Shown here one piece after another: positions 3,643-19,591 of a stretch of 38,370 nt of DNA. Source of the stretch: a virus; IMG/VR virus record IMGVR_UViG_3300043395_003730, positions 1 to 38,370 of that record. The stretch is one strand, 5' to 3'. The position numbers were made by a program, and so were the translations under genes. Every line of letters begins with the position of its first letter. Positions within the stretch are counted from its first letter, which is position 1. The notes below the pieces were generated by a model that had not been told where the DNA came from, did not search any database, and saw only the letters and a program-made list of their open reading frames with translations.

Positions 3643-3658
3643 TTGGCCCATGTGTGTC

Positions 3659-4033
3659 ATGAGCAACACACCCAACCCTCCACCCGAGGCCGCGCCGCTG
3701 CGCGCACCCATTCAAATTCATATCCTCAGATCCGGCCACATCGTGGCCGATATTTCCGAAGGTCGAGCTATTGGTGATCCCGATGCAATTTTCGCCGGTT
3801 ATACGCTGCTGAAAAAACAGATCAAAGACACCGACTCTGCTGCATTACTAGATGCCAAACTGCGAGTCAGCGCCGGCTACCTTACCAACCGGCAGACCCT
3901 TATGGAGCGTCTTTGCAGCCTCAACACATCCCCCAACTGGAGCGGCTACGACAGAGCCCACGCCGACCTCCTCCAATCAATCAAAGAGATCGACGACCGC
4001 ATCGCCGCGCTTTTCCCCGTCGCCACCCCATGA
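3659..4033 (+). CDS. Hypothetical late protein
   Basis: A 124-residue protein of unknown function; an alternative ATG lies at 3650. I prefer 3659 because it keeps the 20-30 base distance from the upstream TTTGACA motif seen at other junctions. The N-terminus is proline-rich, followed by a short beta-like stretch and then a mainly helical remainder with a charged C-terminal helix (IKEIDDRIAAL). Codon use is less C-biased than in the terminase. Its stop overlaps the next start (ATGA), implying translational coupling. Its place between large terminase and portal fits a small head-assembly factor, but no motif supports this. Confidence 0.6.
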   Translation: MSNTPNPPPEAAPLRAPIQIHILRSGHIVADISEGRAIGDPDAIFAGYTLLKKQIKDTDSAALLDAKLRVSAGYLTNRQTLMERLCSLNTSPNWSGYDRAHADLLQSIKEIDDRIAALFPVATP

Positions 4034-4752
4034 GCACGCCCGCCACCCGCCGCTCCCTCATGCAGAGCGCCCGAGCCTGGCTGACCTCATGGCCCAAGTT
4101 CCGCGCCGCGACCGACGAAGCCACCGCCCCCTCGCCGATTCCGACCACCCTACAAGGCGGCGCCGCCAGCGGCATCATCCACGCCGCCGAGCAGCGCCGC
4201 TTCCACGAGGAGATTATCCCCATCGCCACCCGTCACCGGTTGGACTACCTCAACCACCATTCCAGCCGCCCGATGAGCGATCACCCCCTCGACCTCACCG
4301 CCGAGCAAATCGCCCTCGTCCAGAGACTAGGCTACACGACCCTCCTAGGCTTCCCCCTCCGCTGCACCGATTCCGAGCCCGAGTCCGCTGAGGCTGGCTT
4401 TGCCCGGGCGCAGCAAGTCATGGCCAAACTTACTCTCGCCGTAGAGTGCGCCACCGCAGCCCCCTCCGTTCCCTCCCTTCCCTCCTGTGAAACCAAGCCC
4501 GCCCCGCGCATCCGCGTAGTCGGTGAGACGATCTGCTGGGGCATCAAAGACCACTACGCCACGGCCCCGATCCTCAACCTCCCCGCAGGCGTGCTAAAAG
4601 TCCGCCGCCGCCTCCGCCCCAACCAGCCGGCCCGCATCTATCTCCGCTACGCTGACCGCCTCGAAGTCTGGCTCGCCCAAGACCACCCCGCCGGCCTCCA
4701 CCTAAAACTCCGCCAAGGCATCAACGTCCAAGATCAGCCGCGAGGCAAATAA
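4030..4752 (+). CDS. Hypothetical late protein with internal repeat
   Basis: A 240-residue protein coupled to the upstream gene by ATGA overlap; the frame is open further upstream, but that extension overlaps the previous gene in another frame. The N-terminal half is helical; the C-terminal half (from about residue 158) looks beta-rich, with short strands and basic residues. The coding sequence at 4463-4493 carries a copy of the pyrimidine repeat normally found between genes, read as PSVPSLPSCETKP, which probably forms a linker between the two halves. No family was recognised. It is the last phage-like gene before the cassette array. Confidence 0.6.
   Translation: MSTPATRRSLMQSARAWLTSWPKFRAATDEATAPSPIPTTLQGGAASGIIHAAEQRRFHEEIIPIATRHRLDYLNHHSSRPMSDHPLDLTAEQIALVQRLGYTTLLGFPLRCTDSEPESAEAGFARAQQVMAKLTLAVECATAAPSVPSLPSCETKPAPRIRVVGETICWGIKDHYATAPILNLPAGVLKVRRRLRPNQPARIYLRYADRLEVWLAQDHPAGLHLKLRQGINVQDQPRGK
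4463..4493 (+). repeat. Class A pyrimidine repeat, inside a CDS
   Basis: A copy of CTCCGTTCCCTCCC followed by TTCCCTCCTGTGAAA, translated in frame within the 240-residue protein. It is the only class A copy located within a gene. Confidence 0.85.
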
Positions 4753-4756
4753 CTCT

Positions 4757-4990
4757 ATGGAAACTCCACCCGCAATACCCCCCGCCGATCGGTTGCCCTC
4801 GTTGGCTGAAACGACTGGTTGGGCCGAATTGATCCCTCTTACAGGGACGTGGATAGCGCGCTGTGACGCCTGCGGCTGCGGATATGAAAACTGGTCGGGG
4901 AGCACTCCATGCTGCGGGTCACTTGCCACGGTCGAAGACCATAAGCCCAACGACAAAGTTCAGGGACACGGCGGGAACGAAGCCCAATAA
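4757..4990 (+). CDS. Small Cys-rich (zinc-ribbon-like) cassette protein
   Basis: A 77-residue protein with CDACGCG and, 14 residues on, PCCG: paired cysteines typical of a zinc ribbon or rubredoxin-like knuckle. Function unknown. The gene ends inside the attC-like site at 4945-5066, as integron cassette genes do. A GTTGGGC core-like heptamer (4818-4824) lies inside the reading frame, so the first 20 or so codons may be phage-derived and fused to the cassette gene; the original start could be the TTG a few codons after the heptamer. Base composition is more balanced than in neighbouring late genes. Confidence 0.6.
   Translation: METPPAIPPADRLPSLAETTGWAELIPLTGTWIARCDACGCGYENWSGSTPCCGSLATVEDHKPNDKVQGHGGNEAQ
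4808..4824 (+). other. Remnant attC right half
   Basis: GAAACGACTGGTTGGGC matches the right end of the attC-like site at 5600-5686 (GAATCGACTGGTTAGCC) at 14 of 17 positions and ends in GTTGGGC, which fits the integron core GTTRRRY. No matching left half was found upstream, so this looks like the truncated left border of the cassette array. Confidence 0.45.
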
Positions 4991-5066
4991 CCATTTAACC
5001 ATATGAAAAACCAACTGACTCAATTTGCGGCTCGTGGCCGTGTTCTCCTGCAACGCTTTGTTAGGC
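4945..5066 (+). other. attC-like recombination site 1
   Basis: An imperfect inverted repeat of 122 bp. It begins with GCCCAAC (RYYYAAC) and ends with GTTAGGC (GTTRRRY), the outer core boxes of integron attC sites. Inner complementary blocks are CAAAG/CTTTG (4954-4958 and 5056-5060), CAGG/CCTG, and ACACGG/CCGTGT (4966-4971 and 5038-5043). The central loop of about 66 bases is within the known attC size range. It is the weakest of the three sites. Confidence 0.6.
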
Positions 5067-5323
5067 TCATTTCTGCTTGGGCTTGGCGCGAAGAACTGAG
5101 GCTCCATAAAAACGTGGCCGAAGACGCTCAGGCCCTCGTGGACGCACTGATTCGCGGAGAACGCGCCGACGCCTTCTGTGGATACGGAAGAGACGGCCAA
5201 GCGTCCAACTACCGCGACGAACTCAAGTTTTCGCTGCGTGCCTTGCCTAACGCCGTGGTCAGCAACGCGACGAGCGGCTCTCCACATACGCAGGACAGGT
5301 CAAGCAGTCGCGTTGCGCTGTAG
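5003..5323 (+). CDS. Hypothetical cassette protein
   Basis: A 106-residue frame of unknown function. Its ATG lies in the loop of the first attC-like site, and the core box GTTAGGC is read through in frame (codons 20-22), so the true cassette-borne start may be later; no ATG follows in frame nearby, and a GTG near 5114 is possible. The middle is an amphipathic helix (EELRLHKNVAEDAQALVDAL). The C-terminus is low-complexity, being encoded by the second attC-like site. Codon usage (more A/T, less C-ending) differs sharply from the surrounding late genes, supporting foreign origin. Confidence 0.5.
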   Translation: MKNQLTQFAARGRVLLQRFVRLISAWAWREELRLHKNVAEDAQALVDALIRGERADAFCGYGRDGQASNYRDELKFSLRALPNAVVSNATSGSPHTQDRSSSRVAL

Positions 5324-5336
5324 CACATGGTTAGCC
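5245..5336 (+). other. attC-like recombination site 2
   Basis: A 92-bp site from GCCTAAC (5245-5251, a perfect RYYYAAC box) to GTTAGCC (5330-5336). A perfect 10-bp inner stem is formed by GCAACGCGAC (5262-5271) and GTCGCGTTGC (5307-5316), with a small hairpin-sized loop between. The next gene starts 15 bases after the site, as in integron cassettes. Confidence 0.75.
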
Positions 5337-5351
5337 TCCGTCTCCGAATTT

Positions 5352-5651
5352 ATGCACACAAAAACACCAAGAACTGACGCAGTAGAATACAGCAACCTCC
5401 GCGTGAAGCCCGAACGCTTCGTCGTCGATGCCGACTTCGCCCGTGACCTAGAGCGTGAGAACGAGGACGCCCGCGAAGCGCTCGCGCTCGCCCATGCGAT
5501 CCTCGCCAAACTCCCGCCCCGCGATGTGGTTCACGCATCCAAGCGGGCCGCGATCAAACACGTGGGCAACGCCCCTATGGCATACATCGCCGGAGTTTTG
5601 GCTAACGCGAAGATCAGAGACGCGGGAGGACGGGCCGCGCCTCCCCTGTGA
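5352..5651 (+). CDS. Hypothetical cassette protein (RTDA/DFARxLE type)
   Basis: A 99-residue protein. The start is the ATG 15 bases after the GTTAGCC end of the preceding attC-like site; an upstream extension of the frame runs through that site and is rejected. The pattern KTPRTDA, then FVVDADFARDLERENEDAREAL, resembles small proteins common in phage and environmental genomes, where TPRTDA is followed by DFARxLERE; no function is known for them. The second half is helical and the C-terminus overlaps the following attC-like site. It forms, with that site, a complete cassette of about 350 bp (core to core). Confidence 0.65.
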   Translation: MHTKTPRTDAVEYSNLRVKPERFVVDADFARDLERENEDAREALALAHAILAKLPPRDVVHASKRAAIKHVGNAPMAYIAGVLANAKIRDAGGRAAPPL

Positions 5652-5686
5652 CGTTCACCCGCGTTCTCTGAATCGACTGGTTAGCC
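5600..5686 (+). other. attC-like recombination site 3
   Basis: The clearest site, 87 bp, with exactly complementary outer boxes GGCTAAC (5600-5606) and GTTAGCC (5680-5686). The inner arms CAGAGACGCGGG (5615-5626) and CCCGCGTTCTCTG (5658-5670) pair over 12 bp with one unpaired base on one side, as with the extrahelical bases that set strand choice in attC. A further GGGAGG/CCTCCC hairpin fills the loop. A start codon follows 14 bases after the site. Confidence 0.82.
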
Positions 5687-5699
5687 TCTTTCGCCTTTT

Positions 5700-5960
5700 A
5701 TGTCCTCGATCACCCTCCAAATCGGCGCGCTCTGCGACCCGATCAGCAAACAACTCGCCGGGCACATCTCCAAGGATGACGCCGACCGGCTCGACCGCCA
5801 CGGCGACGCAATCACGCACTGCTACGTCATGGGATTCATGCCACAAGCGCAGACAGACCGCGCCCGCAAGAAGCTCCTCGAAATGTGCAAGAAGGCCGTA
5901 GTCGCGCACGCCAACTCTTCTCCGGCTAACAAGGCCAATATCCCATTCTGCCCAGAATAA
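5700..5960 (+). CDS. Hypothetical cassette protein
   Basis: An 86-residue protein of unknown function starting 14 bases after the GTTAGCC core of the preceding attC-like site, the normal position of a cassette gene. It is mostly helical with several Lys/Arg residues near the C-terminus (RARKKLLEMCKK) and four cysteines overall. GGCTAAC at 5924-5930, inside the last codons, matches the left core box of the preceding site, but no right half follows, so the cassette seems to be cut off where the phage sequence resumes. Confidence 0.6.
   Translation: MSSITLQIGALCDPISKQLAGHISKDDADRLDRHGDAITHCYVMGFMPQAQTDRARKKLLEMCKKAVVAHANSSPANKANIPFCPE
5924..5930 (+). other. Remnant attC left core box
   Basis: GGCTAAC, identical to the left box at 5600-5606. 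No complementary GTTAGCC occurs downstream before the next gene. Interpreted as the right border of the cassette array, where the last attC was truncated. Confidence 0.35.
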
Positions 5961-5969
5961 CTCCCGCTA

Positions 5970-6287
5970 ATGCACGCACTCAAACGCATCCCTTGGAAGC
6001 GTCGCCGCGCTAAAGCCAAGGAGTGGGGCGCCAAGGGCCTGCTTGCCCAGGCTGCCGCCCGCGTCGAGCGCGGGCCAGACTTCGCCACCCAGCGTGCGCG
6101 CGCCCTCGATGATCGCCGCGGTCAGCGTGTCCGCCACGGCGTCACCTACCACGGCGACGGCCGCGTCACCTAGTGGGAGATCGTTCACTCCCGCGCCGGC
6201 CGCACCACGCAATACGACATCCTCGTCTCCGGCGTCCTCTGGCGCACTGGCGGCCCCCGCATCATCCGCGCCCTCCTCGCTGCCTGA
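5970..6287 (+). pseudogene. Small phage gene interrupted by an in-frame amber codon
   Basis: Codons 1-67 (5970-6170) are followed by TAG (6171-6173), after which the same frame stays open and protein-like for 37 more codons to TGA at 6285-6287. The two parts join naturally (DGRVT, stop, WEIVHSRAGRTTQYDILVSG), suggesting a single ancestral protein of about 105 residues with an N-terminal basic helix and a small beta domain. A TAC, CAG or TGG codon could have become TAG by one change. Other genes here end with TAG, so codon reassignment is unlikely. Either a nonsense mutation or amber readthrough. Its position, two genes before the portal, suggests a head-completion role, but no family was recognised. 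Confidence 0.6.
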
Positions 6288-6296
6288 TTGCCCGCC

Positions 6297-6324
6297 CTCC
6301 CTTCTCTCCGTTCCCTCCTGTAAA
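6297..6324 (+). repeat. Class A pyrimidine repeat
   Basis: A slightly diverged copy (TTCTCTCCGTTCCCTCCTGTAA) just after the amber-interrupted gene, followed at 6344 by TTGACA. No gene start follows closely, so this unit may be left over from a lost gene. The 6325-6556 stretch otherwise holds the CCTTCGC repeat and no convincing gene. Confidence 0.8.
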
Positions 6325-6488
6325 ATATTCTGCCCAGCCCCGCTTGACACGCCCACCCCTTCAGCCGTTCCCCCCGAGCGCCCGGGGCCGGTGCTCATGA
6401 CTCCCGCCCCTGTTCCATCGCGGCGCCTCGTGCGATGAGGGGCGGGAAAAAGCGAGCCCCCGCCTCGTTCTCCCCATCCTCCCTGTCC

Positions 6489-6520
6489 GTCCTTCGCTCC
6501 CTTCGCTGCCTTCGCGAGAC
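6489..6520 (+). repeat. CCTTCGCTCCCTTCGCTG repeat, copy 1
   Basis: Its reverse complement (TCTCGCGAAGG, AGCGAAGGG, GCGAAG units) recurs at 31797-31827 within the ParB-like gene, with only a few differences. Confidence 0.75.
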
Positions 6521-6537
6521 ACCCTCCGCCCCGCCGG

Positions 6538-6543
6538 TTGACA
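6538..6543 (+). promoter_or_regulatory. TTGACA junction motif
   Basis: TTGACA preceded by GG, 19 bases before the ATG at 6557; the same relation is seen ahead of other late genes. Confidence 0.35.
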
Positions 6544-6556
6544 ACCCGCGGCATGC

Positions 6557-6853
6557 ATGGAATCCGCCGCCAAAATCGCCACCCTCAAGCAGGGCCTGCG
6601 CATCAAATACGCCACCGATCCGGGCGCCCTCCGCGCCCTCTGGGAGCGCGTCTTTTCCGAGTCCACCGAGTTCGTCGAGCTCACCGGCAACGCCTACGAA
6701 GGCGGCTCCGCCTCCGGCACCCACATCCTCCACCGCCTGGAGTATCTCGCCGCCGTGCAGGATGTGCTCGCCGAGCTGGCGCCCGCCACCACGCCCGCCG
6801 CCCCGCCCCCCGGCACCTTCGCCGATTTCCGCGCCAACTGGGTGCAAACTTAA
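6557..6853 (+). CDS. Hypothetical small protein preceding the portal
   Basis: A 98-residue, acidic, mainly helical protein of unknown function. The ATG at 6557 is preceded by another out-of-frame ATG at 6553. Helical segments span roughly residues 1-40 and 55-75; the C-terminal 25 residues are Ala/Pro-rich and end in a short aromatic segment. In lambda-like genomes a small connector protein (gpW) lies between large terminase and portal, and this gene occupies that slot, but I see no gpW signature. Confidence 0.6.
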   Translation: MESAAKIATLKQGLRIKYATDPGALRALWERVFSESTEFVELTGNAYEGGSASGTHILHRLEYLAAVQDVLAELAPATTPAAPPPGTFADFRANWVQT

Positions 6854-6879
6854 ATTTCCCTGATCCCCCACTTGGATCG

Positions 6880-6920
6880 CCCTTCCTCCGCCCTTCGCGT
6901 CTTCGCGTTAAAAAAATTCG
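6880..6920 (+). repeat. Class C repeat, right half only
   Basis: CCTTCGCGTCTTCGCGTTAAAAAAA ending just ahead of the portal start. It matches the right ends of the two full palindromic elements at 8665-8769 and 12883-12999; the left half is missing here. Confidence 0.8.
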
Positions 6921-6926
6921 ACCACC

Positions 6927-8630
6927 ATGTCCCGCCGCCGCCACCGCCCTTCTCAGTCCTCCGCCCTTCAGGTCTCAGGTCTCAGCCCTCAGGTTTCTCC
7001 TCCCCAGACCTCCGCCGCCGTGCCCTGGGGCGGCGGCTTCGTCCCCGCCACTGGCTTCGGCGGCGCGGGCAATGGCCACCAAGGCGCCGACTACAGCCGC
7101 CTCCGCGGCATGATCTACTTCCCCGAGCTCGACACCCGCCGCGAGATCAGCGCCTACACCCGCCTCGAGATCCTCCGCCGCTCCCGCTTCCTCTACGCCA
7201 ACTACGGCATCGCCAAACGCATCATTAACGGCCTCGCCCGCATGGTCGCCGGCACCGGCCTCACCTACCAGGCCGCCACCACCGACACCGAGTGGAATGT
7301 CCTCGCCGAAAAAGCCCGCGACCGCGTCACCCGCTCCCGCCACCTCTACGACCTCGGCGGCCGCTACACCGGCTCCACCTCCCAGCAAGCCGTCCTCCGG
7401 TTCCGCTACCGCGACGGCGATTGCGCCCAGATCCTCACCCGCGATCCCCAGACCGGCACCGCCCGCTTCGCCTTTTACGAAGGCCACCAGATCGGCCAGA
7501 CGATGGACCCCGCCACCTACGATGCCAACTCTGGCTGGCGCGATGGCGTCCTCCACGGCCCCCACAACAACGCCCTCGCCTACCGCCTCCTCGGCGACCA
7601 CGCCGACTACACCGATGTCCCCGCCCGCTCCTGCCTGTTTCAGTGCGACTACGAGCGCGCCGGCCAGTCCCGCGGCCTCTCCATCCTCAGCCACGCCATC
7701 AACCACCTCGTCGACGCCGCCGAGATCACCGGCTACATCAAGTCCGGCGTTAAACTCTCCAACCGCCACGGCTACTGGATCGAGACCGCCCCCGATTCCC
7801 AACCCCCCCTCACCGCCGCCCAGCGCGCCCAAGGTGGCCAGGCCATCCAGACCATCACCACCGCCGCCGGCCCCGTAAACCTCGAGCGCATCTACGGCCC
7901 CGGCGAGATTCCCAACCTCCAGCCCGGCCAGTCCCTCAAATTCAACAGCGCCGCCAATCCCCACCCCAACCAACTCGCCCTTCTCGATTACTTGATCCGC
8001 GACGTCGCCTGGGGCGCCAACGTCTCCCCCGAGCTCCTCTGGAACATCACCGCCCTCGGCGGCGCCAACACCCGCTTCGTCCTCGCCGATGCCCAGTCCT
8101 TCATCGACTGCGGCCAACAACAACTCATCGACGACAAGCTCCAACTCGAGACCGAGTTCATCCTCGCCTGCGAGATGGCCGCCGGCCGCCTCCGCCCCTG
8201 CCGCGATCCTGAGTGGTGGAAAGCCCTCTGGATTCCCCCGCCCCGCCTCACCGTCGACTTCGGCCGCGACGGCAAACTCTACCTCGAACAAGTCAAAGCC
8301 TCCGCCCTCACCTTCCGCCGCCTCCACGGCTGGCAAGGCAACGACTTCGAGACCGAGCAGCGCCAGTGGGTCCGCGAATGGTTCAGCTGGGGCAAAGTCG
8401 CCAAAGAAGAGTCCGTCGCCCTCGGCCTCCCCGAAGCCACCGAGCAGCAGATCGCCGAGATCCGCGCCACGATTTATGGCCGCGCCGGCGTCGCGCCTGC
8501 CCTGGCCAACGAGCCCGGCCCCGACGCCGCGCCCGAGAACCCCTCCGACGTCCGCGCCCAGCTCGCCGAACTCGCCAAAAATCCCGCCAAAGCCCAGGCC
8601 CTCCTCGAGCAAATGCGCCAAGCCGCCTGA
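6927..8630 (+). CDS. Portal protein, lambda gpB family
   Basis: A 567-residue portal that should form the dodecameric DNA gate at the capsid vertex. The pattern RSRFLYANYGIAKRIINGLARMVAGTGL (about 67-95), a central segment around ERAGQSRGLSILSHAINHL, and the helical ELLWNITALGGANTRFVLADAQ region all fit lambda-type (PF05136) portals, as does the length. The N-terminus carries an in-frame class B repeat (residues about 13-28, ALQVSGLSPQVSPPQTS), most likely a disordered extension. It follows a class C half-repeat directly. Gene order portal, then S49 protease, then scaffold-like protein, then capsid matches lambda B-C-Nu3-E. A 21-bp palindromic repeat and a 105-bp palindromic element follow the stop. 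Confidence 0.92.
   Translation: MSRRRHRPSQSSALQVSGLSPQVSPPQTSAAVPWGGGFVPATGFGGAGNGHQGADYSRLRGMIYFPELDTRREISAYTRLEILRRSRFLYANYGIAKRIINGLARMVAGTGLTYQAATTDTEWNVLAEKARDRVTRSRHLYDLGGRYTGSTSQQAVLRFRYRDGDCAQILTRDPQTGTARFAFYEGHQIGQTMDPATYDANSGWRDGVLHGPHNNALAYRLLGDHADYTDVPARSCLFQCDYERAGQSRGLSILSHAINHLVDAAEITGYIKSGVKLSNRHGYWIETAPDSQPPLTAAQRAQGGQAIQTITTAAGPVNLERIYGPGEIPNLQPGQSLKFNSAANPHPNQLALLDYLIRDVAWGANVSPELLWNITALGGANTRFVLADAQSFIDCGQQQLIDDKLQLETEFILACEMAAGRLRPCRDPEWWKALWIPPPRLTVDFGRDGKLYLEQVKASALTFRRLHGWQGNDFETEQRQWVREWFSWGKVAKEESVALGLPEATEQQIAEIRATIYGRAGVAPALANEPGPDAAPENPSDVRAQLAELAKNPAKAQALLEQMRQAA
6969..6998 (+). repeat. Class B AGGTCTCAGG repeat, inside the portal gene
   Basis: AGGTCTCAGGTCTCAG then CCCTCAGGTTTC, translated in frame near the N-terminus of the portal. 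The same repeat otherwise occupies intergenic gaps in the tail module. Confidence 0.85.
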
Positions 8631-8650
8631 TTGCTGCACCGGTGCAACAA
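8630..8650. repeat. 21-bp repeat with perfect palindromic core, copy 2
   Basis: Identical to 3561-3581, with core TGCACCGGTGCA at 8635-8646. It begins at the last base of the portal stop codon. Confidence 0.85.
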
Positions 8651-8664
8651 ACAAGCCCGCAGAA

Positions 8665-8769
8665 ATTTTAACGCCAAGACGCCAAGACCCAACCCAAGCC
8701 CAACCCAAGAAAACCCCGGTCTTCTTGGCTAGACCTTCCCTCCGCCCTTCGCGTCTTCGCGCTAAAAAA
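8665..8769. repeat. Class C palindromic element (MITE-like), copy 1
   Basis: An imperfect inverted repeat of about 105 bp. The left end TTTTAACGCCAAGACGCCAAG mirrors the right end CTTCGCGTCTTCGCGCTAAAA, and an inner pair CCAAGAA/TTCTTGG surrounds CCCCGGT. It would form a long hairpin in single-stranded DNA or RNA. A second full copy is at 12883-12999. Confidence 0.8.
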
Positions 8770-8773
8770 TCCG

Positions 8774-8807
8774 CCCTCCGTTCCCTCCCTTCCCTCCTGT
8801 AAAAAAA
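8774..8807 (+). repeat. Class A pyrimidine repeat
   Basis: A full copy ending in TGTAAAAAAATG, so that the repeat provides the A-rich leader and the start codon of the protease gene. No Shine-Dalgarno sequence is present. Confidence 0.9.
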
Positions 8808-9688
8808 TGACCAATCCCACTTTCACCGCCGGCGCCCATCGCCTCCTCACCGACTTCGTCGCCCTGCCGGTCGGCATGCACCCGGCGCACCACCTCAGCC
8901 TCATCCGCCATCTCCACGGCATCACCCAAGGCGCGCAGATCCCGCCCACCAACTCTGCCTCCTACATCCAGTGGGCTCTCGGTGGCTACAAAGGCGAGCC
9001 GTGGAACGAGCCCTGCTACGCCATCGACGCCAAGACCGGCGTGGCCCTCCTCAAGATCGAAGGCGCCCTCGTCAAAGGCTACGACGACGCCACCTGCTTC
9101 ATCTACGGCCTCGGCTCGATCAACCGCTACCAGCGAGCCGTGGCCGAACTCTCCCGCCGCGCCGATGTCCTCACCCTCGTCATCGACCTCAAAACCCCCG
9201 GCGGCCAATCCACCGGCATGCCCGAGCTCGCCCAGCAGATCGCCGACCTCGCCGCCCGCATTCCGGTCCTCACTCACACCTCCGACATGGCCTGCTCCAA
9301 CGGCATGCGCCTCGCCGTGGCCGGCACGCAGTTTTATCCGGCCGCCTCCGCCATGGTCGGCTGCATCGGCACGTATATCGCCATGTATAACCAAACCAAG
9401 ATGCTCGAAGAGTGGGGCATCAAGCTGGAGCTGTATCGCGCCGGCAAATACAAAGCCATCGGCCTCCCCGGCAAAGACACCGCCGAAGACGAAGCCGCCT
9501 TCATCCAAGGCTCCGTCAATCGCTCCAACGAAATCTTCAAAGATTTTGTCCGCGCCCGCCGCCCCCGCGCCGAAGAGAGCGCCATGGAAGGCCAATGGTT
9601 CGACGGTGCCGAAGCCGTAGCCTTCGGCCTGGCCGACGCCACCGTCTCCAGCCTCGACGACGTCCTGGCCCTCGCCGCGTCGCTCTAA
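8807..9688 (+). CDS. S49-family prohead protease (lambda gpC-like)
   Basis: A 293-residue serine peptidase of the SppA/ClpP-like fold, expected to process scaffold and portal during prohead maturation. The glycine-rich oxyanion segment is DLKTPGGQSTG (128-138). The nucleophile is probably S164 in SDMACSNGM, where S49 enzymes have an Ala-Ser-Ala type motif. The general base is probably K216 in RAGKYKAIG, aligning with the S49 lysine (GxYKD type). The stretch MVGCIGTYIAM (183-193) corresponds to the TGSIGV strand of SppA. Placement between portal and scaffold-like gene matches lambda. The start codon lies directly within a class A repeat. Confidence 0.88.
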   Translation: MTNPTFTAGAHRLLTDFVALPVGMHPAHHLSLIRHLHGITQGAQIPPTNSASYIQWALGGYKGEPWNEPCYAIDAKTGVALLKIEGALVKGYDDATCFIYGLGSINRYQRAVAELSRRADVLTLVIDLKTPGGQSTGMPELAQQIADLAARIPVLTHTSDMACSNGMRLAVAGTQFYPAASAMVGCIGTYIAMYNQTKMLEEWGIKLELYRAGKYKAIGLPGKDTAEDEAAFIQGSVNRSNEIFKDFVRARRPRAEESAMEGQWFDGAEAVAFGLADATVSSLDDVLALAASL

Positions 9689-9696
9689 ATCCCAAC

Positions 9697-9731
9697 CCTC
9701 TCCGTTCCCTCCCTTCCCTCCTGTAAAAAAA
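9697..9731 (+). repeat. Class A pyrimidine repeat
   Basis: A full copy just after the protease stop, followed 27 bases later by the TTTGACT motif of the next gene. Confidence 0.9.
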
Positions 9732-9757
9732 CAACTCCGTCCTCCGCCTCCGCCCGT

Positions 9758-9781
9758 TTGACTTCCACGCCCTCCTTTAAC
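9758..9781 (+). promoter_or_regulatory. TTGACT-N12-TTTAAC junction motif
   Basis: TTGACT (9758-9763) and TTTAAC (9776-9781) are 12 bases apart, and the start codon follows 6 bases later. The same two blocks with the same spacing occur at 10651 and 14350. The spacing is too short for a standard -35/-10 pair. Confidence 0.5.
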
Positions 9782-9786
9782 TTCCC

Positions 9787-10521
9787 ATGAAAAACCGCCA
9801 CCGCTCCCACGCCTTCCTCGCCGCCCTCGCCGCGATCCTCCCCCTCCTCGCCGTCTCCCACGCTCCGCTCTCCGGCCTGCACATGGCCGACGAGGCCCCC
9901 GCCACCGAGACCGACGAAGAAAAGAAAAAGCGCGAAGAGAAGGAAGAAGCCGAAAAAGCCAAAAAGGCCAAAGGCACCGACGACTCCGACGCCGACGACA
10001 AAAAGAAGGAAGACGACGCCAAGGCCAAGGCCGCCGCCCCCTCCCCCCTCGCCGCCCGCATCGCCGGCGCCCTGGCATCCTTGAAAGGCGGCACCCCCGC
10101 CCAGCTCGCCGCCACCATCGCCGCCAAAGACGGCGAGATCGCCACCCTCCGCGCCGATCTCACCACCGCGCAGGCCACCGCCACGCAGGCCACCGCCGAT
10201 CTCGCCACCGCCAAGGCCAGCCTCACCAGCACCGAAGCCACCCTCGCCACCCTCTGCGGCTACCTCGGCATCAAGCCCGCCGACGTCGCTGGCAAGTCCG
10301 CCGCCGACGTCACCACCGCGCTCAACGCCAAAGTGGACGCCCTCGCCGTCGAGCAGATCGCCGGCCTCGGCTTCAACTCCGCCAAGCTCCCCGCCCCCAG
10401 CGGCTCCACCGGCGGCGAGCAAAAGACCAAGGCCGAACTCTTCGCCGAGTATAACGCCCTCACCAACGCCAACGACCGCGCCGCCTTCTACGCCAAGCAC
10501 AAAGTCGCGATGGGCCTCTGA
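9787..10521 (+). CDS. Scaffold-like head protein with N-terminal hydrophobic segment
   Basis: A 244-residue protein between prohead protease and major capsid, the scaffold (Nu3-like) position. From residue 37 it is highly charged (EEKKKREEKEEAEKAKKAK), followed by an Ala/Thr-rich coiled coil (about 110-160) and a C-terminal helical tip (TKAELFAEYNALTNANDRAAF) resembling the ends of phage scaffold or protease-scaffold proteins. Oddly, residues 10-30 form a hydrophobic, signal-like stretch (AFLAALAAILPLLAVSHAPL). An internal ATG at 9883 (MADEAPATE) would remove it, but the spacing from the TTGACT-N12-TTTAAC motif supports the first ATG. A strong terminator follows. Confidence 0.65.
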   Translation: MKNRHRSHAFLAALAAILPLLAVSHAPLSGLHMADEAPATETDEEKKKREEKEEAEKAKKAKGTDDSDADDKKKEDDAKAKAAAPSPLAARIAGALASLKGGTPAQLAATIAAKDGEIATLRADLTTAQATATQATADLATAKASLTSTEATLATLCGYLGIKPADVAGKSAADVTTALNAKVDALAVEQIAGLGFNSAKLPAPSGSTGGEQKTKAELFAEYNALTNANDRAAFYAKHKVAMGL

Positions 10522-10547
10522 TCCGCGCCGCACCCGCTCCGCTTCCC

Positions 10548-10582
10548 AGCCCCGCTGCCTCCCCCGAGGCGCGGGGCTTTTT
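10548..10582 (+). terminator. Rho-independent terminator after scaffold-like gene
   Basis: Outer stem AGCCCCGC/GCGGGGCT (10548-10555 and 10571-10578), a bulged T, then inner stem GCCTC/GAGGC around loop CCCC, followed by a T5 run. It lies 27 bases after the stop codon and should reduce readthrough into the capsid gene. Confidence 0.9.
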
Positions 10583-10593
10583 CATGCCCACCC

Positions 10594-10628
10594 CTCTCCG
10601 TTCCCTCCCTTCCCTCCTGTAAAAAAAC
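10594..10628 (+). repeat. Class A pyrimidine repeat
   Basis: A full copy between the terminator and the TTTGACA motif ahead of the capsid gene. Confidence 0.9.
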
Positions 10629-10650
10629 AAACCCGTCCCGAGCCGCCCCT

Positions 10651-10674
10651 TTGACACGCCGCGCCTGCTTTAAC
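10651..10674 (+). promoter_or_regulatory. TTGACA-N12-TTTAAC junction motif ahead of capsid gene
   Basis: TTGACA (10651-10656), the 12-base spacer CGCCGCGCCTGC, and TTTAAC (10669-10674), 17 bases before the ATG. Because a strong terminator lies upstream, some new initiation here is plausible. The spacer is repeated at 19484-19502. Confidence 0.5.
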
Positions 10675-10691
10675 CTTAAAAAAATACTACC

Positions 10692-11924
10692 ATGCCCAAC
10701 ACACTCGGCACTCTGTCCGGCACAATCGTCATCCAGAAAGCTCTGGAACTGACTTTCCAACGCTTCCCCGAACTCTCCCTCTTCGCCCGCGGCTTCAAAG
10801 ACTACGACGGCCGCGTCTCCCAGGCGCAACTCAACCAGACCGTCGTCTCCCGCATTCTCGTCCCCAGCACCGTCTCCACCTTCGGCACGGCTGCGTCCGA
10901 CTTCAATGCCACCGACGTCCCCGGCAAGCTGCGCAACTTCCGCCAGATCTACCACGCGTTCACCGCTGGCGAGGTCAACGCCACTGACCGCAACCTCATC
11001 GAAGAGGCCGCCATGCCCATGGCCACCGGTCTGGCCATCGCCATTACCAACTCCGTCGCCGCCCAGGTCAACCGCTCCAACTTCGGCCGCACCGTCAACG
11101 GCCAGGCCGGCCACATCGCCGTCTCCTCCGCCTGGGGCTACGCCAACACCCTCGTCCCCCTCCGCACCGGCCTCAAAAAGCGCGGCGCTCCCCAGCAGGG
11201 CCGCTACTTCGTCGCCAACGCCGACGTCGATGGCTCCCTCATGACCGACCCGCTCGTCGTCGCCGCCCTCAACAATCCGGCCAACGGCCTCGCCATCCAA
11301 AAAGGCGAGCTCCCCGAGATCACCTCCGGCCTCCGCTACGGCTCCTTCGACGGTCTCGCCACCGGTCCGGATGGCAACCTCCTCGGCTTCGCCGGCACGC
11401 CCGACGCGCTCCTCTACATGGCCCGCGCCCCCAAGACGCCCGACGAGGTCTTCTCCGAGGCCGCCGCCCGCGCCCCCTTCGTCTACGGCATCGTCACCGA
11501 GCCCATGACCGGCTTCTCCGTCATGGTTCAGCAATGGATCGGCACCGATTTGCAGGTCCACACCCGCCTCGCCTGGCTCGACGGCCTCGAGAAGGGCAAC
11601 GACAACAACCTCATCCGTCTCGTCTCCGGCAATGCCTCCGGCACCTCCGGCACGATCACCAACCTCACCGCCGTCAACACCGGCTACCGCTACGTCAACA
11701 GCGCGGGCGCCATCACCGCTCCCACCATCAGCTTCTCCGGCGGTGGCGGCTCCGGTGCCGCGGCCACCTGCACCGTCGATAGCGAAGGCGCCATCAGCGG
11801 CTTCACCATCAGCAACGCCGGCAGCGGCTACACCAGCCCGCCCACCGTCACCATCACGCCCGCCTCCAGCGGTCGCTTCCAAGGTGAGGCGTCCGTCGTC
11901 GCCACCGTTGGCGGCCTCGCCTAA
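10692..11924 (+). CDS. Major capsid protein with C-terminal glycine-rich extension
   Basis: A 410-residue protein and the likeliest major capsid subunit by position (after protease and scaffold), length and sequence. The N-terminal part ([16 protein letters not shown], then [13 protein letters not shown]) and the central mixed alpha/beta region resemble HK97-fold coat proteins of the P22-like type. After about residue 310 the character changes to a Ser/Gly/Thr-rich segment ending in [18 protein letters not shown], a short beta repeat widespread in phage surface proteins. This probably forms an exposed domain fused to the capsid shell. It is enclosed by terminators on both sides and has an A-rich leader (AAAAAATACTACC) without a Shine-Dalgarno site, so it may be a separately controlled unit. 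Confidence 0.8.
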
Positions 11925-11930
11925 CCCACC

Positions 11931-11968
11931 GCCCGCCGTATCCCTCCACCGGATACGGCGGGCTTTTT
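11931..11968 (+). terminator. Rho-independent terminator after capsid gene
   Basis: A perfect 13-bp stem, GCCCGCCGTATCC with GGATACGGCGGGC, loop CTCCACC and a T5 run, 7 bases after the capsid stop. Confidence 0.95.
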
Positions 11969-11995
11969 CATTAACCCGCCCTCGCGCCACCCGCC

Positions 11996-12346
11996 ATGTC
12001 TCAAGAAACACTCACCACCGCAGCCTCCGCCTTCGTTCGCGGCTCCATCGATCCGATGATCGCCGAGTTCACCAAGGCCAACGCCAACTTCACCGAGCTC
12101 TACGCCAAAGGCGCCGGCCTTGGCACCTCCAGCCGCTCCGGCACCGCCACCCTCGCGGGCGGCACCGTCGTCGTCAGCGATACCGCCACCACGGCGGCGA
12201 GCATCATCCTCCTCACCTGCCAGACCCCTGGCGGCACTCCTGGCTTCCTGCGCGTCTCGGCCCGCAGCGCCGGCACCAGCTTCACGATCCTGAGCAGCTC
12301 CGGCTCGGATACCTCCGTGGTTGGCTACCTCATCATCGAGCCGTGA
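11996..12346 (+). CDS. Head decoration or fibre-like beta protein
   Basis: A 116-residue protein. After an N-terminal helix (IDPMIAEFTKANANFTELYAK) comes a beta-rich domain: SGTATLAGGTVVVSDTATTAASIILL, then GTPGFLRVSARSAGTSFTILSSSGSDTSVVGYLI, with the closing strand-end pattern seen in small phage decoration and fibre head domains. Its position straight after the major capsid is where decoration proteins (lambda gpD) lie, although in lambda gpD precedes the capsid gene. Terminators flank it on both sides, so its transcript depends on readthrough from the capsid or on an unseen promoter. Confidence 0.55.
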   Translation: MSQETLTTAASAFVRGSIDPMIAEFTKANANFTELYAKGAGLGTSSRSGTATLAGGTVVVSDTATTAASIILLTCQTPGGTPGFLRVSARSAGTSFTILSSSGSDTSVVGYLIIEP

Positions 12347-12416
12347 TTCCCTTCCGGCGCGTGATGTGGCGCGCCGGTGTATGTAAGGTTTGAGCAGCAG
12401 CAGATGTGATGATCCG

Positions 12417-12448
12417 GCCCGCCCTCTCCAGCAGAGGGCGGGCTTTTT
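12417..12448 (+). terminator. Rho-independent terminator after decoration-like gene
   Basis: A perfect 11-bp stem GCCCGCCCTCT/AGAGGGCGGGC, loop CCAGC, T5 run. It closes the capsid/decoration unit about 70 bases after the stop codon. Confidence 0.95.
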
Positions 12449-12472
12449 CGTTTCCAGCCTCCTTCCTCCGGC

Positions 12473-12507
12473 CCCTCCGTTCCCTCCCTTCCCTCCTGTA
12501 AAAAAAC
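12473..12507 (+). repeat. Class A pyrimidine repeat
   Basis: A full copy between the terminator and a TTCGACA variant of the junction motif (12526-12532), which lies 14 bases before the next start. Confidence 0.9.
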
Positions 12508-12545
12508 AAGCCCCGCCTTCACCCCTTCGACACCGCCCCCCTCTC

Positions 12546-12881
12546 ATGAACCGCGCCCAGCTCACCCGCTTCGCCACCCGCAGCGCCGCCCAACGAGTCG
12601 CCCTCTTCGGCGTCGAGTGGCTCCTCGGCACCCAGCGCTTCACCGCCAGCCTCAACGCCGCCACCACCACCCGCCAGCTCGAGGCCGGCGGCTGGAATGA
12701 AGAGGTAAGCGCCACCCTCCGCGTCTCCCGCGCCGAGATCACCCGCGCCGGCCTCGCCTTCGCCCTTGGCGACCAACTCACCCAAGGCACGAGCGCCACC
12801 TACCGCATCGCCGAGATCCGCGACAACCCCGTCTCCCCCGAGCTCGTCCTCGGCCTAGCCCGCGACCTCTCCCGCGCCTGA
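12546..12881 (+). CDS. Head-tail connector candidate (gpFII-like position)
   Basis: A 111-residue protein starting at the ATG at 12546; the open frame upstream is made of terminator and repeat sequence. An N-terminal helix (QLTRFATRSAAQRVALFG) precedes a small beta domain with the pattern ATLRVSRAEITRAGLAFALGD, then TYRIAEIRDNPVSPELVLGL. Such a GD-loop beta barrel is typical of head-tail joining proteins of the FII type. Position after capsid and before tail-completion candidates supports this. A full class C palindromic element follows. Confidence 0.5.
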   Translation: MNRAQLTRFATRSAAQRVALFGVEWLLGTQRFTASLNAATTTRQLEAGGWNEEVSATLRVSRAEITRAGLAFALGDQLTQGTSATYRIAEIRDNPVSPELVLGLARDLSRA

Positions 12882-12882
12882 G

Positions 12883-12999
12883 TTTTCAACGCGAAGACGC
12901 CAAGATCCAAGCCAAGGCCAAACCAAGAAAACCATCCCTCCTCTCCCCGCCTTCTTGGCTCGTCCTTCCTCCGCTCTTCGCGTCTTCGCGCTAAAAAAA
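12883..12999. repeat. Class C palindromic element (MITE-like), copy 2
   Basis: Ends TTTTCAACGCGAAGACGCCAAG and CTTCGCGTCTTCGCGCTAAAA are mutual inverted repeats, with inner CCAAGAA and TTCTTGG as in copy 1; the central spacer differs. It fills the gap between the two genes, with the next start codon 11 bases after. Confidence 0.8.
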
Positions 13000-13009
13000 A
13001 TCCGCCGCC

Positions 13010-13729
13010 GTGCAAATCTCCGTCGACCTCACCCCCCTCATCCGCTCCGCCGACCGCTTCTCGGTCGAGATGGGCAAGAGCACCACCGCCGCCTTCCTCC
13101 AGTCCCTGCGCGGCATGGTCCGCCGCTTCTCCGCCATCACCCCGCCCGCCAGCCGCGCCGCCTCCGGCGTCAACTCCGCCAGCGAGACCGCCCGCCCCGG
13201 CCTCACCACCCAAGATCGCGAGCGCGGCATCCTCGCCATGGAGGCCGACCTCCGCCGCATCTTCAAAGGCTACGGCATCAGCTCCGGCCGCGCCCAGCGC
13301 CGCGCCGGCGTCGAGGCCATCGAGCGCATCCACAAACGCCTCTTCGCCCAAAAAACCCCCGGCCGCAAACTCCGCTCCGATCGCCCCAACGGCGACCCCT
13401 ACTACGTCGACGAAGACGCCCTCCAGGCCTACATCAGGAAGTCGAAGCCCAGCGTCGGCTGGACGGCCTCCGGCCTCAACCGCGCCTTCTCTGCCCTCGG
13501 CATCCGCGCCCCCGCCTGGGTGGCCAACCTCCCGGGTCAAGGCTCCGTCAGTATCCGCACCGGCATTACGCTCTCCGCCCGCATCAGCAACGACAACGTG
13601 CCCGATAAGCTCGTCAACGAGATCAACCGCCGCCTCCAAAAAGCCGTCAGTTACCAAGTCGCCGCCAACGAGCGCGCCATCAAAAGCCGCGCCCAACGCC
13701 TCGCCCGCAGCACCGGCCTCAGCTCCTAG
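13010..13729 (+). CDS. Tail-completion candidate (minor tail Z / HK97 gp10-like)
   Basis: A 239-residue basic protein with GTG start directly after the class C element; no ATG start gives a comparable N-terminus. It opens with a short strand (QISVDLTPLI), then a helix running into a VRRFSAITPP segment, and ends in a long helical basic tail (LQKAVSYQVAANERAIKSRAQRLARS). The order connector, then basic helical protein of 120-240 residues, then a tail-terminator-sized protein is typical of siphovirus neck genes (lambda Z, HK97 gp10). The identification is from order and general character. Confidence 0.45.
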   Translation: MQISVDLTPLIRSADRFSVEMGKSTTAAFLQSLRGMVRRFSAITPPASRAASGVNSASETARPGLTTQDRERGILAMEADLRRIFKGYGISSGRAQRRAGVEAIERIHKRLFAQKTPGRKLRSDRPNGDPYYVDEDALQAYIRKSKPSVGWTASGLNRAFSALGIRAPAWVANLPGQGSVSIRTGITLSARISNDNVPDKLVNEINRRLQKAVSYQVAANERAIKSRAQRLARSTGLSS

Positions 13730-13733
13730 CCCG

Positions 13734-13756
13734 CCCTCCGTTCCCTCCTGTAAAAA
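13734..13756 (+). repeat. Class A pyrimidine repeat, short form
   Basis: CTCCGTTCCCTCCTGTAAAAA: one TTCCCTCCC unit is missing. It ends 9 bases before the next ATG. Confidence 0.85.
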
Positions 13757-13764
13757 TTTCCACC

Positions 13765-14292
13765 ATGTCCGTCCCAGATTCCCTCGCCATCCGCGCCAAA
13801 GTCGACGCCGCCGTCAAAGCCTACCTCCTCGCCCGCGTCGCCGCCTACGGCCAGTCCGCGCTCACCGGCGTGGCCACCCGCACCCGCCTCGACGTCGCCG
13901 ACGGCAAAAAATACATGCCCATCGTCGTCATCGAGACGGCCAGCGCCCCCGCCTTCGAGGAGTTAAACACGCTCTACATGTGCTCCACCACCGTGGGCCT
14001 CGCCGCCCTGGCCAACTATCCCACCGTCGCCGAAGCCGCCGATCTCCACGCCCAGCGCACCGGCCTCCTCACCGAGTGGCTCGCCGACCGCGCATCCTTC
14101 AAAGCCTACATCAACGAGGGCCTGCAACCGTGGATCACTCCCGCCCCCGCGCCCATCGATCTCCCCGTGCCCCAGCTCCACGTCAGCGACATTCTCCTCA
14201 ACTCCGAAGACGGCGAGCAAGCCGCCGACCCCTCCGGCGGCCACTGGATCGAGGCCCTCAGCTACCTCATCCCCGCCCAGCTCACCGACTGA
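13765..14292 (+). CDS. Tail-terminator candidate
   Basis: A 175-residue protein in the slot of gpU-like tail terminators. The N-terminal helix (SLAIRAKVDAAVKAYLLARV) is followed by alternating strands (MPIVVIETASAPAFEEL, LYMCSTTVGLAALANYP) and a helical segment (HAQRTGLLTEWLADRASFKAYI), an alpha/beta pattern like that of minor tail U-type proteins. No diagnostic motif was recognised. It starts 9 bases after a short class A repeat and is followed by a full class A copy. Confidence 0.4.
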   Translation: MSVPDSLAIRAKVDAAVKAYLLARVAAYGQSALTGVATRTRLDVADGKKYMPIVVIETASAPAFEELNTLYMCSTTVGLAALANYPTVAEAADLHAQRTGLLTEWLADRASFKAYINEGLQPWITPAPAPIDLPVPQLHVSDILLNSEDGEQAADPSGGHWIEALSYLIPAQLTD

Positions 14293-14296
14293 GCCG

Positions 14297-14328
14297 CCCT
14301 CCGTTCCCTCCCTTCCCTCCTGTAAAAA
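14297..14328 (+). repeat. Class A pyrimidine repeat
   Basis: A full copy 5 bases after the preceding stop and before the TTTGACA motif at 14350. Confidence 0.9.
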
Positions 14329-14349
14329 CAAACCCGTCCTCCGTCTCGT

Positions 14350-14373
14350 TTGACACTCCCGCCCAGCTTTAAG
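14350..14373 (+). promoter_or_regulatory. TTGACA-N12-TTTAAG junction motif
   Basis: TTGACA (14350-14355) and TTTAAG (14368-14373) are again 12 bases apart, 32 bases before the next ATG. Confidence 0.5.
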
Positions 14374-14404
14374 CCCAGCGCCCACCCTTTAACCACTTAC
14401 CACC

Positions 14405-14770
14405 ATGCCCGTCACCGTCCGAGGCCAAGCCCTCCTCCAATTTGGACCCACCACCATTGTCGGCATTCAAGTTGTCGTCACTGGCCGCCAAAAAGAAAAG
14501 ACCGTCGAGTCCTACCAGCTTCAAGACGAGCTCGGCAAAGTCATCACCGACGTCACCAGCAACGGCACCGACGGCGCCATGGGCTACAAAGTCACCAACC
14601 GCTACAACTTCATCCCCCTCAGCGGCGCCGCCGAGCCCGATGCCGGCGCCATCTTCACCGGCGCCTCCGGCGAGAAAGGCATCCTCCGCTCTGTCCGCCG
14701 CGTCGAACAGCAGAAAATGCCCGTCATGTGGGAACTCGAGTGCGAAGCCTTCCCCGGCGTCGCCATCTAA
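14405..14770 (+). CDS. Hypothetical tail protein
   Basis: A 121-residue, beta-rich protein (VRGQALLQFGPTTIVGIQVV, and a C-terminal strand MWELECEAFPGVAI) of unknown function. Position after the tail-terminator candidate and before the chaperone and tape-measure genes is where tail-tube proteins lie, and length and beta content would permit a minimal tube subunit, but I cannot match it to that family. Class B repeats follow at once. Confidence 0.5.
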   Translation: MPVTVRGQALLQFGPTTIVGIQVVVTGRQKEKTVESYQLQDELGKVITDVTSNGTDGAMGYKVTNRYNFIPLSGAAEPDAGAIFTGASGEKGILRSVRRVEQQKMPVMWELECEAFPGVAI

Positions 14771-14782
14771 TCTCCACCCTTT

Positions 14783-14853
14783 TCAGGTCTCAGGTTTCAA
14801 GTCTCAGGTCTCTCCTCCTCCTCAGGTCTCAGGTTTCAACCCTCAAGTTTCAA
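14783..14853 (+). repeat. Class B AGGTCTCAGG repeat array
   Basis: About seven degenerate units of TCAGGTCTC, TCAGGTTTC and TCAAGTCTC fill the gap between two tail genes, ending 4 bases before the ATG. Confidence 0.9.
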
Positions 14854-14857
14854 AATT

Positions 14858-15217
14858 ATGTCCACCACCTCCGTCTCCATCGCCCTCTCCTACAGCGCGC
14901 CCACCGATAGCTTCACGACCAACGCGGCCAACACCTACGACCAGGTTGGCACCGGCGTCCTCCTCGCCCAGCAGACCATCGGCACCACCAGCGAAGCCAT
15001 CGCCCTCGGCGATCTGGCCAACGTCACCGGCGGCCTCTTCATCAAGAACAACGACGCCACCAACTACGTCGAGGTCGATTCCGCCAACACCTACGACAAG
15101 TTTCCGCAGAAGATCCTCCCCGGCCGCGCCATCCTCCTGGCCAGCCAGACGACCACCCTGCACGCCCGCGCCAACACCGCCGCCGTCACTATCACCATCG
15201 GCGCCGCCGCCGCCTGA
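14858..15217 (+). CDS. Hypothetical small structural protein
   Basis: A 119-residue, Thr/Ala-rich, beta-type protein without recognised family. Strands such as GGLFIKNNDATNYVEVDS and ILPGRAILLASQ resemble small phage surface or tail-decoration domains that hold a central sandwich. It is flanked by class B repeats on both sides, which makes it a clean single-gene module in the tail region. Confidence 0.5.
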   Translation: MSTTSVSIALSYSAPTDSFTTNAANTYDQVGTGVLLAQQTIGTTSEAIALGDLANVTGGLFIKNNDATNYVEVDSANTYDKFPQKILPGRAILLASQTTTLHARANTAAVTITIGAAAA

Positions 15218-15219
15218 TC

Positions 15220-15250
15220 CTCAGGTCTCAAGTCTCAGCCCTCAGGTTTT
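15220..15250 (+). repeat. Class B AGGTCTCAGG repeat
   Basis: Three or four units between the stop of one tail gene and the ATG of the next (8 bases away). Confidence 0.9.
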
Positions 15251-15257
15251 TCATTCC

Positions 15258-16034
15258 ATGTCCACGCCCGCCCCCACGGCCCCCGCCGAGTCGGCGGGCG
15301 CTTCCGTTTCCGAGCCCTCAGGTCTCAAGTCTCAGCCCTCTTCCGAGCCTCCGGTCTCAGGTCTCAGCCCTCAAGTTTCCTCTGGCCTGCTGCCAGCGCA
15401 CTTCCTCGAGGCCTGGCTCAACCTCGACCACACCGTCTGCCGCCGCGCCCTGCCGCCCTACAGCCTGCACGCGCACATGATGCTCTGCGCGGCCAACAGC
15501 CCCTTCGCCTTCGAGGCCCTGCCCGCCGGCTACCAAGTCACCTGGGAGGATCTGTGGGAGGCCCTCACCCTCGTCACCACGCCCCGCGGCCGCCCCGTCG
15601 TTTATCCCTCCGGCGCCCGCTGCGTCATCCGCCAGCGCTTCTACCGCCTCGACCTCGCCCGCGAAGTCGCCGCCTTCCGCGCCTGGCAAAACGACTACCT
15701 CTCCGCCCCCGAGGTCTTCAGCTCCGAAGGCGGCGGCCGCGAGCTCACCGCCCCGGGCATCCTAGCCCGCGTGGTCTTCCTCCTTCGCCACCTCCACCTC
15801 ACCGCCTCCGAAGTCTGGGGCATGCCCATCGGCCAGGCCCTCTGGCTCCACGCCGCCACCCTCGAGCAACTCTCCGAGAGCGTCTCCCTCCTCGGCGACG
15901 AAGAAGCCAAGCTCTTCGCCCTCGTCAAAGGCATCCAGGAAGGCACCACCCCCATCCCCGGCGAGCCCGATCCCTCCACTGGCGATTCCCTCCTCTCCCG
16001 CGTCGCCCAACTCGCGGGGATTCACCGCAACTAG
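15258..16034 (+). CDS. Tail assembly chaperone candidate
   Basis: A 258-residue protein just before the tape measure, the usual place of tail assembly chaperones (lambda gpG/GT). The start is the ATG after a class B array; the open frame upstream is non-coding repeat and a shadow of the previous genes. Residues about 20-43 (SGLKSQPSSEPP, then VSGLSPQVSSG) are encoded by an in-frame class B array and are probably disordered. The remainder is helical. No overlapping second frame or slippery site that would mark a programmed frameshift was found. Confidence 0.45.
   Translation: MSTPAPTAPAESAGASVSEPSGLKSQPSSEPPVSGLSPQVSSGLLPAHFLEAWLNLDHTVCRRALPPYSLHAHMMLCAANSPFAFEALPAGYQVTWEDLWEALTLVTTPRGRPVVYPSGARCVIRQRFYRLDLAREVAAFRAWQNDYLSAPEVFSSEGGGRELTAPGILARVVFLLRHLHLTASEVWGMPIGQALWLHAATLEQLSESVSLLGDEEAKLFALVKGIQEGTTPIPGEPDPSTGDSLLSRVAQLAGIHRN
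15317..15379 (+). repeat. Class B AGGTCTCAGG repeat array inside a CDS
   Basis: About six units, translated in frame near the N-terminus of the chaperone candidate. Confidence 0.85.
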
Positions 16035-16045
16035 CTCCCGGCCCT

Positions 16046-16076
16046 CCCTCCGTTCCCTCCCTTCCCTCCTGTAAAC
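16046..16076 (+). repeat. Class A pyrimidine repeat
   Basis: A full copy reaching to TGTAAACC directly before the tape-measure ATG. Confidence 0.9.
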
Positions 16077-16077
16077 C

Positions 16078-17184: not shown

Positions 17185-17199
17185 TTTCCAACTCCGACC

Positions 17200-17230
17200 C
17201 TCAGGTCTCAGGTTTCAAGTCTCAGGTCTC
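17200..17230 (+). repeat. Class B AGGTCTCAGG repeat
   Basis: Three units with flanking CCCTCAGG, 9 bases before the next ATG. Confidence 0.9.
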
Positions 17231-17238
17231 TTCCTCCC

Positions 17239-18132: not shown

Positions 18133-18137
18133 CCTTC

Positions 18138-18172
18138 TCTCAGGTCTCAGGTCTCAGCCCTCAGGTTTCAAA
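18138..18172 (+). repeat. Class B AGGTCTCAGG repeat
   Basis: Three units ending in CAGGTTTCAAAAAA just ahead of the next ATG. Confidence 0.9.
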
Positions 18173-18175
18173 AAA

Positions 18176-19437: not shown

Positions 19438-19443
19438 CCGCCC

Positions 19444-19473
19444 CTCTGTTCCCTCCGTTCCCTCCTGTAAACC
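19444..19473 (+). repeat. Class A pyrimidine repeat
   Basis: A variant copy (CTCTGTTCCCTCCGTTCCCT then CCTGTAAA), 7 bases after the preceding stop and before a TTTGACA motif. Confidence 0.85.
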
Positions 19474-19483
19474 GTCCGGACCT

Positions 19484-19502
19484 TTGACATCGCCGCGCCT
19501 GC
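19484..19502 (+). promoter_or_regulatory. TTTGACA junction motif
   Basis: TTGACATCGCCGCGCCTGC matches the capsid-gene motif at 10651 with one extra base. Here a class B array (19517-19591) lies between the motif and the gene start, as if inserted. Confidence 0.5.
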
Positions 19503-19516
19503 GTTCTCCTCCGCCT

Positions 19517-19591
19517 TCAGGTCTCAGGTCTCAGCCTTCAGGTCTTCCGGCTCCGCCCTCAGGTCTCAGGTTTCAGCCCTCAGGTTTCAAA
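19517..19591 (+). repeat. Class B AGGTCTCAGG repeat array
   Basis: About seven units, the longest array in the window, between the TTTGACA motif and the next ATG (3 bases away). Confidence 0.9.

Follow-up and report, generated by a model that had tools for sequence, protein, structure and literature searches.

The window analyzed here, i.e., the whole of a 38,370-bp IMG/VR virus contig (IMGVR_UViG_3300043395_003730), encodes on its plus strand the large subunit of a phage terminase (387–3587; phrog_15, E 7.5e-70) and a portal protein (6927–8630; phrog_21, E 1e-25). It further encodes a head protease (8807–9688) and a major-head-like protein (10692–11924). A tyrosine integrase of the phage family phrog_1 (23856–24932, plus strand) as well as ParB-like and primase-like proteins are also encoded by the record, and its early region contains the gene for a DUF5131 protein (32987–34063; PF07505, E 2e-89). 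Between terminase and portal, four attC sites are arranged head to tail on the plus strand within 968 bp. With the terminase gene on the 5' and the portal gene on the 3' side, phage genes flank the array on both sides, i.e., it is phage-borne.

An initial annotation of this DNA had proposed three attC-like sites, and their coordinates and outer boxes are confirmed: attC1 at 4945–5066 (GCCCAAC/GTTAGGC), attC2 at 5245–5336 (GCCTAAC/GTTAGCC) and attC3 at 5600–5686 (GGCTAAC/GTTAGCC). A covariance-model search of the kind that it had recommended matched all three and added a weaker fourth site, attC0, at 4719–4824 (CATCAAC/GTTGGGC; R' box 4818–4824). The model used, R1, was built from 22 attC sites of bacterial genomes, mostly Verrucomicrobiota, with shortened loops and without any window or phage sequence. 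With filters off, it matched the four sites on the plus strand at E values from 9e-9 to 3e-3 (attC0, 26.5 bits, E 4.8e-4; attC1, 42.9 bits, E 6e-8; attC2, 23.4 bits, E 2.7e-3; attC3, the best site, 46.4 bits, E 9e-9), and beyond these nothing below E 0.2 was found in the whole 38 kb. The outer boxes follow the pattern RYYYAAC/GTTRRRY, from which attC2, attC3 and attC0 deviate by one or two letters, and the L''/L' arms are complementary. In attC1 and attC3 they carry two extrahelical bases each, at positions known from chromosomal sites, while the arms of attC2 pair perfectly over 10 bp with an adjoining offset. A separate detector that demands both outer boxes plus a pairing inner arm returned exactly three strong plus-strand sites, attC1 to attC3 (scores 13, 10.5 and 10), the expectation from shuffled windows being 0.025 comparably strong sites per strand. 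Applied to Tetrasphaera phage TJE1, it found three sites, in agreement with the three attC reported for this phage (PMC9892861); it proved noisy in the AT-rich phage P12002L, which was therefore left out. Rfam gave no match to the window.

The inverted repeats could in principle owe their resemblance to attC to chance and be nothing more than intergenic hairpins or terminators of the phage's genes, and single-stranded folding is of some help to this idea: only attC3 outperformed its dinucleotide shuffles (z −3.4 for the DNA fold, and −2.6), while attC1 and attC2, at z values between −0.4 and −1.0, were no more stable than theirs. Such an origin is nevertheless exceedingly improbable given four matches within 968 bp to an externally trained model that found none elsewhere in the 38 kb or in the nearest related phage, the very low expectation from shuffled windows and the lack of any terminator-like site on the plus strand between positions 3500 and 7000.

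Neither the NCBIfam scan nor a search of the record itself, possibly a fragment, gave a match to the integron integrase family TIGR02249. The phage integrase at 23856–24932 was considered as a candidate IntI and rejected, as it belongs to phrog_1 and does not match TIGR02249. The arrangement of a complete integron, with IntI next to attI and an array, is thus not present, and because the record lacks an integron integrase, the array falls into the class of CALINs, defined by at least two closely spaced attC sites without such an enzyme. The segment 4719–5686 is a CALIN with at least three cassettes and four attC sites within a phage packaging/head operon. The earlier proposal of an integron-type cassette array inside a phage operon is hence supported, with the specification that the array is without integrase and that its attC sites are of the Verrucomicrobiota type.

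Five open reading frames on the plus strand are associated with the sites. P0005 (4030–4752, 240 aa), for which no relative was found, viral contigs included, overlaps the preceding frame (3650–4033) by 4 bp, and its last codons (INVQDQPRGK) are encoded by the left arm of attC0. In another contig, L002, frames at attC sites end in similar tails (..LPNAQDQP). P0005 may itself be a cassette gene; there is no attC 5' of it. The next two frames begin inside recombination sites, each with its ATG only a few bases past the stop of the preceding gene. P0001 (4757–4990, 77 aa), a cysteine-rich protein (CDACGCG...PCCG), starts in the loop of attC0 and its frame crosses the recombination point of that site, and P0002 (5003–5323, 106 aa) starts in the loop of attC1 and crosses R'. 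P0003 (5352–5651, 99 aa) and P0004 (5700–5960, 86 aa) have conventional starts 15 nt past attC2, after R', and 13 nt past attC3, respectively. Pfam and NCBIfam returned nothing for the cassette frames, P0001, P0003 and P0004 had no relatives among viral contigs, P0003 had none in 195 genomes, and P0001 to P0003 are without convincing relatives. P0003 weakly resembles (E 0.07) a frame in the integron array of L072, a 52-kb IMG/VR contig that carries an IntI-like gene (G410:C1:10657-11598; 231 bits, below the cut-off) along with its attC array and that yielded no phage gene among three proteins tested. A scan for consensus promoters detected none for the cassettes; most likely they are expressed together with the rest of the packaging/head operon.

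The left border of the array is attC0, and its right half accounts for the half-site at 4808–4824 that had been taken as a border mark. The corresponding claim for 5924–5930 does not hold: this motif has no GTT partner downstream and was rejected as an attC border. P0004 is a member of the phage gene family phrog_25508, a relative of which adjoins MuB in a Mu-like Verrucomicrobiota prophage (in a genome from the phylum of genome G001). P0004 was judged unlikely to be a cassette gene, and because it belongs to a phage family and is not followed by an attC, the right border is placed at the end of attC3 (5686) and not at 5930.

In the phage record collection no close DNA relative was found with positions 4001–8800 of the window as query. 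The nearest relative found, L001, shares 58% amino-acid identity in the portal and 41% in the terminase. In L001 the interval from the terminase to the gene before the portal measures 479 bp vs. 2,970 bp in the window, and model R1 found no attC there (nothing below E 0.2), such that the recommended comparison with related phages showed absence of the segment from this relative. The window also contains dispersed leader-like repeats (4462–20344 and 6968–19603), e.g., CCCTCCGTTCCCTCCCTTCCCTCCTGTAAAAAA in 11 copies and TCAGGTCTCAGGTTTCA... in 13 copies, several of which directly precede the start codons of late genes; one copy, at 4462, is contained in the frame 4030–4752, and analogous AGCCTTTAGCCTTCAGCC leaders occur in the phage contig L003. 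Leader repeats of the window phage are present at 4462 and 6295, with none between. The GC content of the segment, 58.8% vs. 66.2%, a value as low as in only 3% of windows of equal size, bears out the difference in composition from the surrounding phage genes that had been noted initially. Because the interval in L001 is short and free of attC, the leader repeats skip the segment and its GC content is lower, the segment has the appearance of DNA inserted at a variable position within the head module.

A search of genome contigs with the attC core pattern collected 23 loci, 13 of which are labelled Verrucomicrobiota or a group within them. IntI scored above the curated family cut-off in 10 of 13 attC-bearing genomes (12 Verrucomicrobiota and one member of the Planctomycetota), and it adjoins attC sites in three of them (G001:C403, G003:C4 and G010:C17). 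Of 96 genomes drawn from the phylum to which G001 belongs, 15 gave model matches, one of them as many as 41. At the DNA level, a search of 388 genomes with attC1 yielded only two matches of 23–24 nt. Judged by sequence, the attC sites of the window match the type found in Verrucomicrobiota integrons that possess IntI. Chromosomal integrons of this group, e.g., L015 in G001, are alike in attC sequence and structure and differ in that most of the genomes tested have IntI vs. none in the phage record. The phage is tailed and integrase-bearing, and the attC type along with distant prophages points to a host that probably belongs to the Verrucomicrobiota.

Arrays with attC sites of the same type are present in further phage contigs: L003 (terminase, portal, integrase and tape measure), L066 (Erf and exonuclease), the 168-kb contig L067 (terminase), the 74.5-kb contig L073 (at least 11 attC sites; terminase), L075 (head/fibre protein) and L079 (Sak4-like and tail proteins). 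The L003 phage encodes an RNA ligase in the region of its attC array (L061:15203-15877; phrog_14301, E 1e-77), and one integron cassette gene of L073 (2960–5476, minus strand) codes for a DnaB helicase that contains a LAGLIDADG domain, a probable intein. L002, a contig of an unrelated phage with a Sak4-like gene, contains a site that is identical to attC1 at 111 of 122 positions (91% over 122 nt), the loop included. Start codon and leader (MKNQLTQFAAR.RVLLQR) are shared with attC1 of the window, yet in L002 they are joined to an unrelated protein.

This last observation bears on the possibility that the array was acquired in one piece from a host integron or another phage, through illegitimate or homologous recombination, and persists as an inert relic on which IntI never acts in the phage. 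The record without IntI and the weakness of attC0 and attC2 would fit such a history, and capture of this kind has been proposed for some phage CALINs (PMC9892861). Full arms and extrahelical bases are however retained in attC1 and attC3, and the occurrence of the same attC1 in front of different genes in two phages requires either that the core recombined or that fusions arose more than once. We therefore regard an inert relic as rather unlikely and capture or exchange of cassettes by a host IntI as plausible.

To survey gene starts at attC sites more broadly, a read-through start was defined as an ATG in the attC loop followed by at least 40 open codons past R', counted at sites with enough flank. 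Such starts were present at 19 of 28 sites in phage arrays vs. 9 of 117 in chromosomal arrays, the phage count deriving from eight contigs with phage genes that were sampled by attC patterns, in which sites of one array are non-independent and part of the 'viral' arrays may in fact be integrons of the host that were captured along with proviral contigs. Counted by array, at least one read-through start occurred in 7 of 8 phage and 9 of 42 chromosomal arrays (p 7e-4). The difference persisted without the three arrays that had prompted the idea (13 of 19 phage sites, p 2e-8) and when L073 was left out as well (4 of 8, p 0.004). In L073, the frames that start inside attC include those of the DnaB helicase and of an MT-A70 methyltransferase. 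The conserved domains of both begin soon past the attC-encoded leader, which argues that those frames are real genes.

Read-through from loop ATGs could also be a by-product of frames left open in GC-rich attC arms or of the way contigs were sampled, with the real starts located after R'. Indeed, a candidate start codon lies 0–60 nt past R' at most read-through sites, and sampling via attC patterns is not a census. On the other hand, the antisense control gave only 3 of 28 phage sites (5 of 117 chromosomal sites), chromosomal sites of the same type rarely show the feature, the bias holds when sites with the same R' motif are compared (6 of 10 phage vs. 2 of 27 chromosomal sites), and the stops of upstream frames cluster at a 4-nt ATGA overlap, which together render a by-product distinctly unlikely. 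The predicted starts instead suggest that genes in phage arrays of this type often begin within the loop of the attC that precedes them. Extending this to all phage CALINs was rejected because TJE1, the attC sites of which have been used experimentally, is without such starts, its annotated genes beginning after R'.

The statement in the initial annotation that integron cassettes within a phage structural module are rarely or never described is outdated, as phage CALINs, e.g., that of TJE1, have been described and phage attC sites have been shown to be usable by IntI1 (Qi et al., 2023; PMC9892861). The array presented here resembles these CALINs in its cluster of attC sites, its small genes of mostly unknown function, the lack of IntI and its residence in a tailed phage, and differs in its Verrucomicrobiota-type attC, its position between terminase and portal and frames that often start inside the upstream attC. 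The Verrucomicrobiota-type sites, the head-module position and the loop-start bias are new, phage CALINs themselves being known. Hairpins formed by attC hinder ribosomes, and frames within attC can relieve this hindrance (reviewed in PMC8876359). ORF-11 of attI1 and short frames in attC are alike in that initiation within a recombination site aids expression of the next cassette, yet these are reinitiating short frames or single fusions such as gcuF1-blaOXA-28 (PMC8876359), whereas in several phages the main gene itself is predicted, for the majority of sites, to start in the attC before it. The literature searched, with subscription journals and preprints mostly outside its reach, yielded no account of phage arrays in which genes regularly start within attC.

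Taken as a whole, we consider a CALIN in a tailed phage, with cassette entry or exchange by a host IntI and loop ATGs as an adaptation, the best explanation, at a probability of about 0.85. The cassettes would have entered, and could be exchanged, through a host-encoded IntI acting in trans on the folded bottom strand of attC during infection or lysogeny. Phage arrays of this type would be fitted to dense operons in that each attC loop accommodates both the stop of the preceding gene and the ATG of the following one, such that translating ribosomes might open the hairpin that otherwise hampers translation of downstream cassettes. Since genes begin inside the recombination signals, a swap of cassettes would change the start of the protein too, and each exchange would give the downstream protein a new N-terminus. 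More tentatively, and at somewhat less than even odds, phages of Verrucomicrobiota may keep a distinct, shifted form of cassette, the unit exchanged by IntI being a gene body plus the N-terminal leader of the next gene, that would allow supply from host integrons, even for core functions such as a DnaB helicase, with translational coupling preserved and new N-terminal fusions formed at each exchange.

The findings place integron cassettes within a phage's packaging/head operon and tie such phage arrays to Verrucomicrobiota-type integrons, in an association that recurs in IMG/VR contigs of several unrelated phages. If gene starts inside attC are real, they would explain how cassettes can be expressed although the operon is poor in promoters and tightly coupled, and would offer a route to fusion proteins by site-specific recombination.
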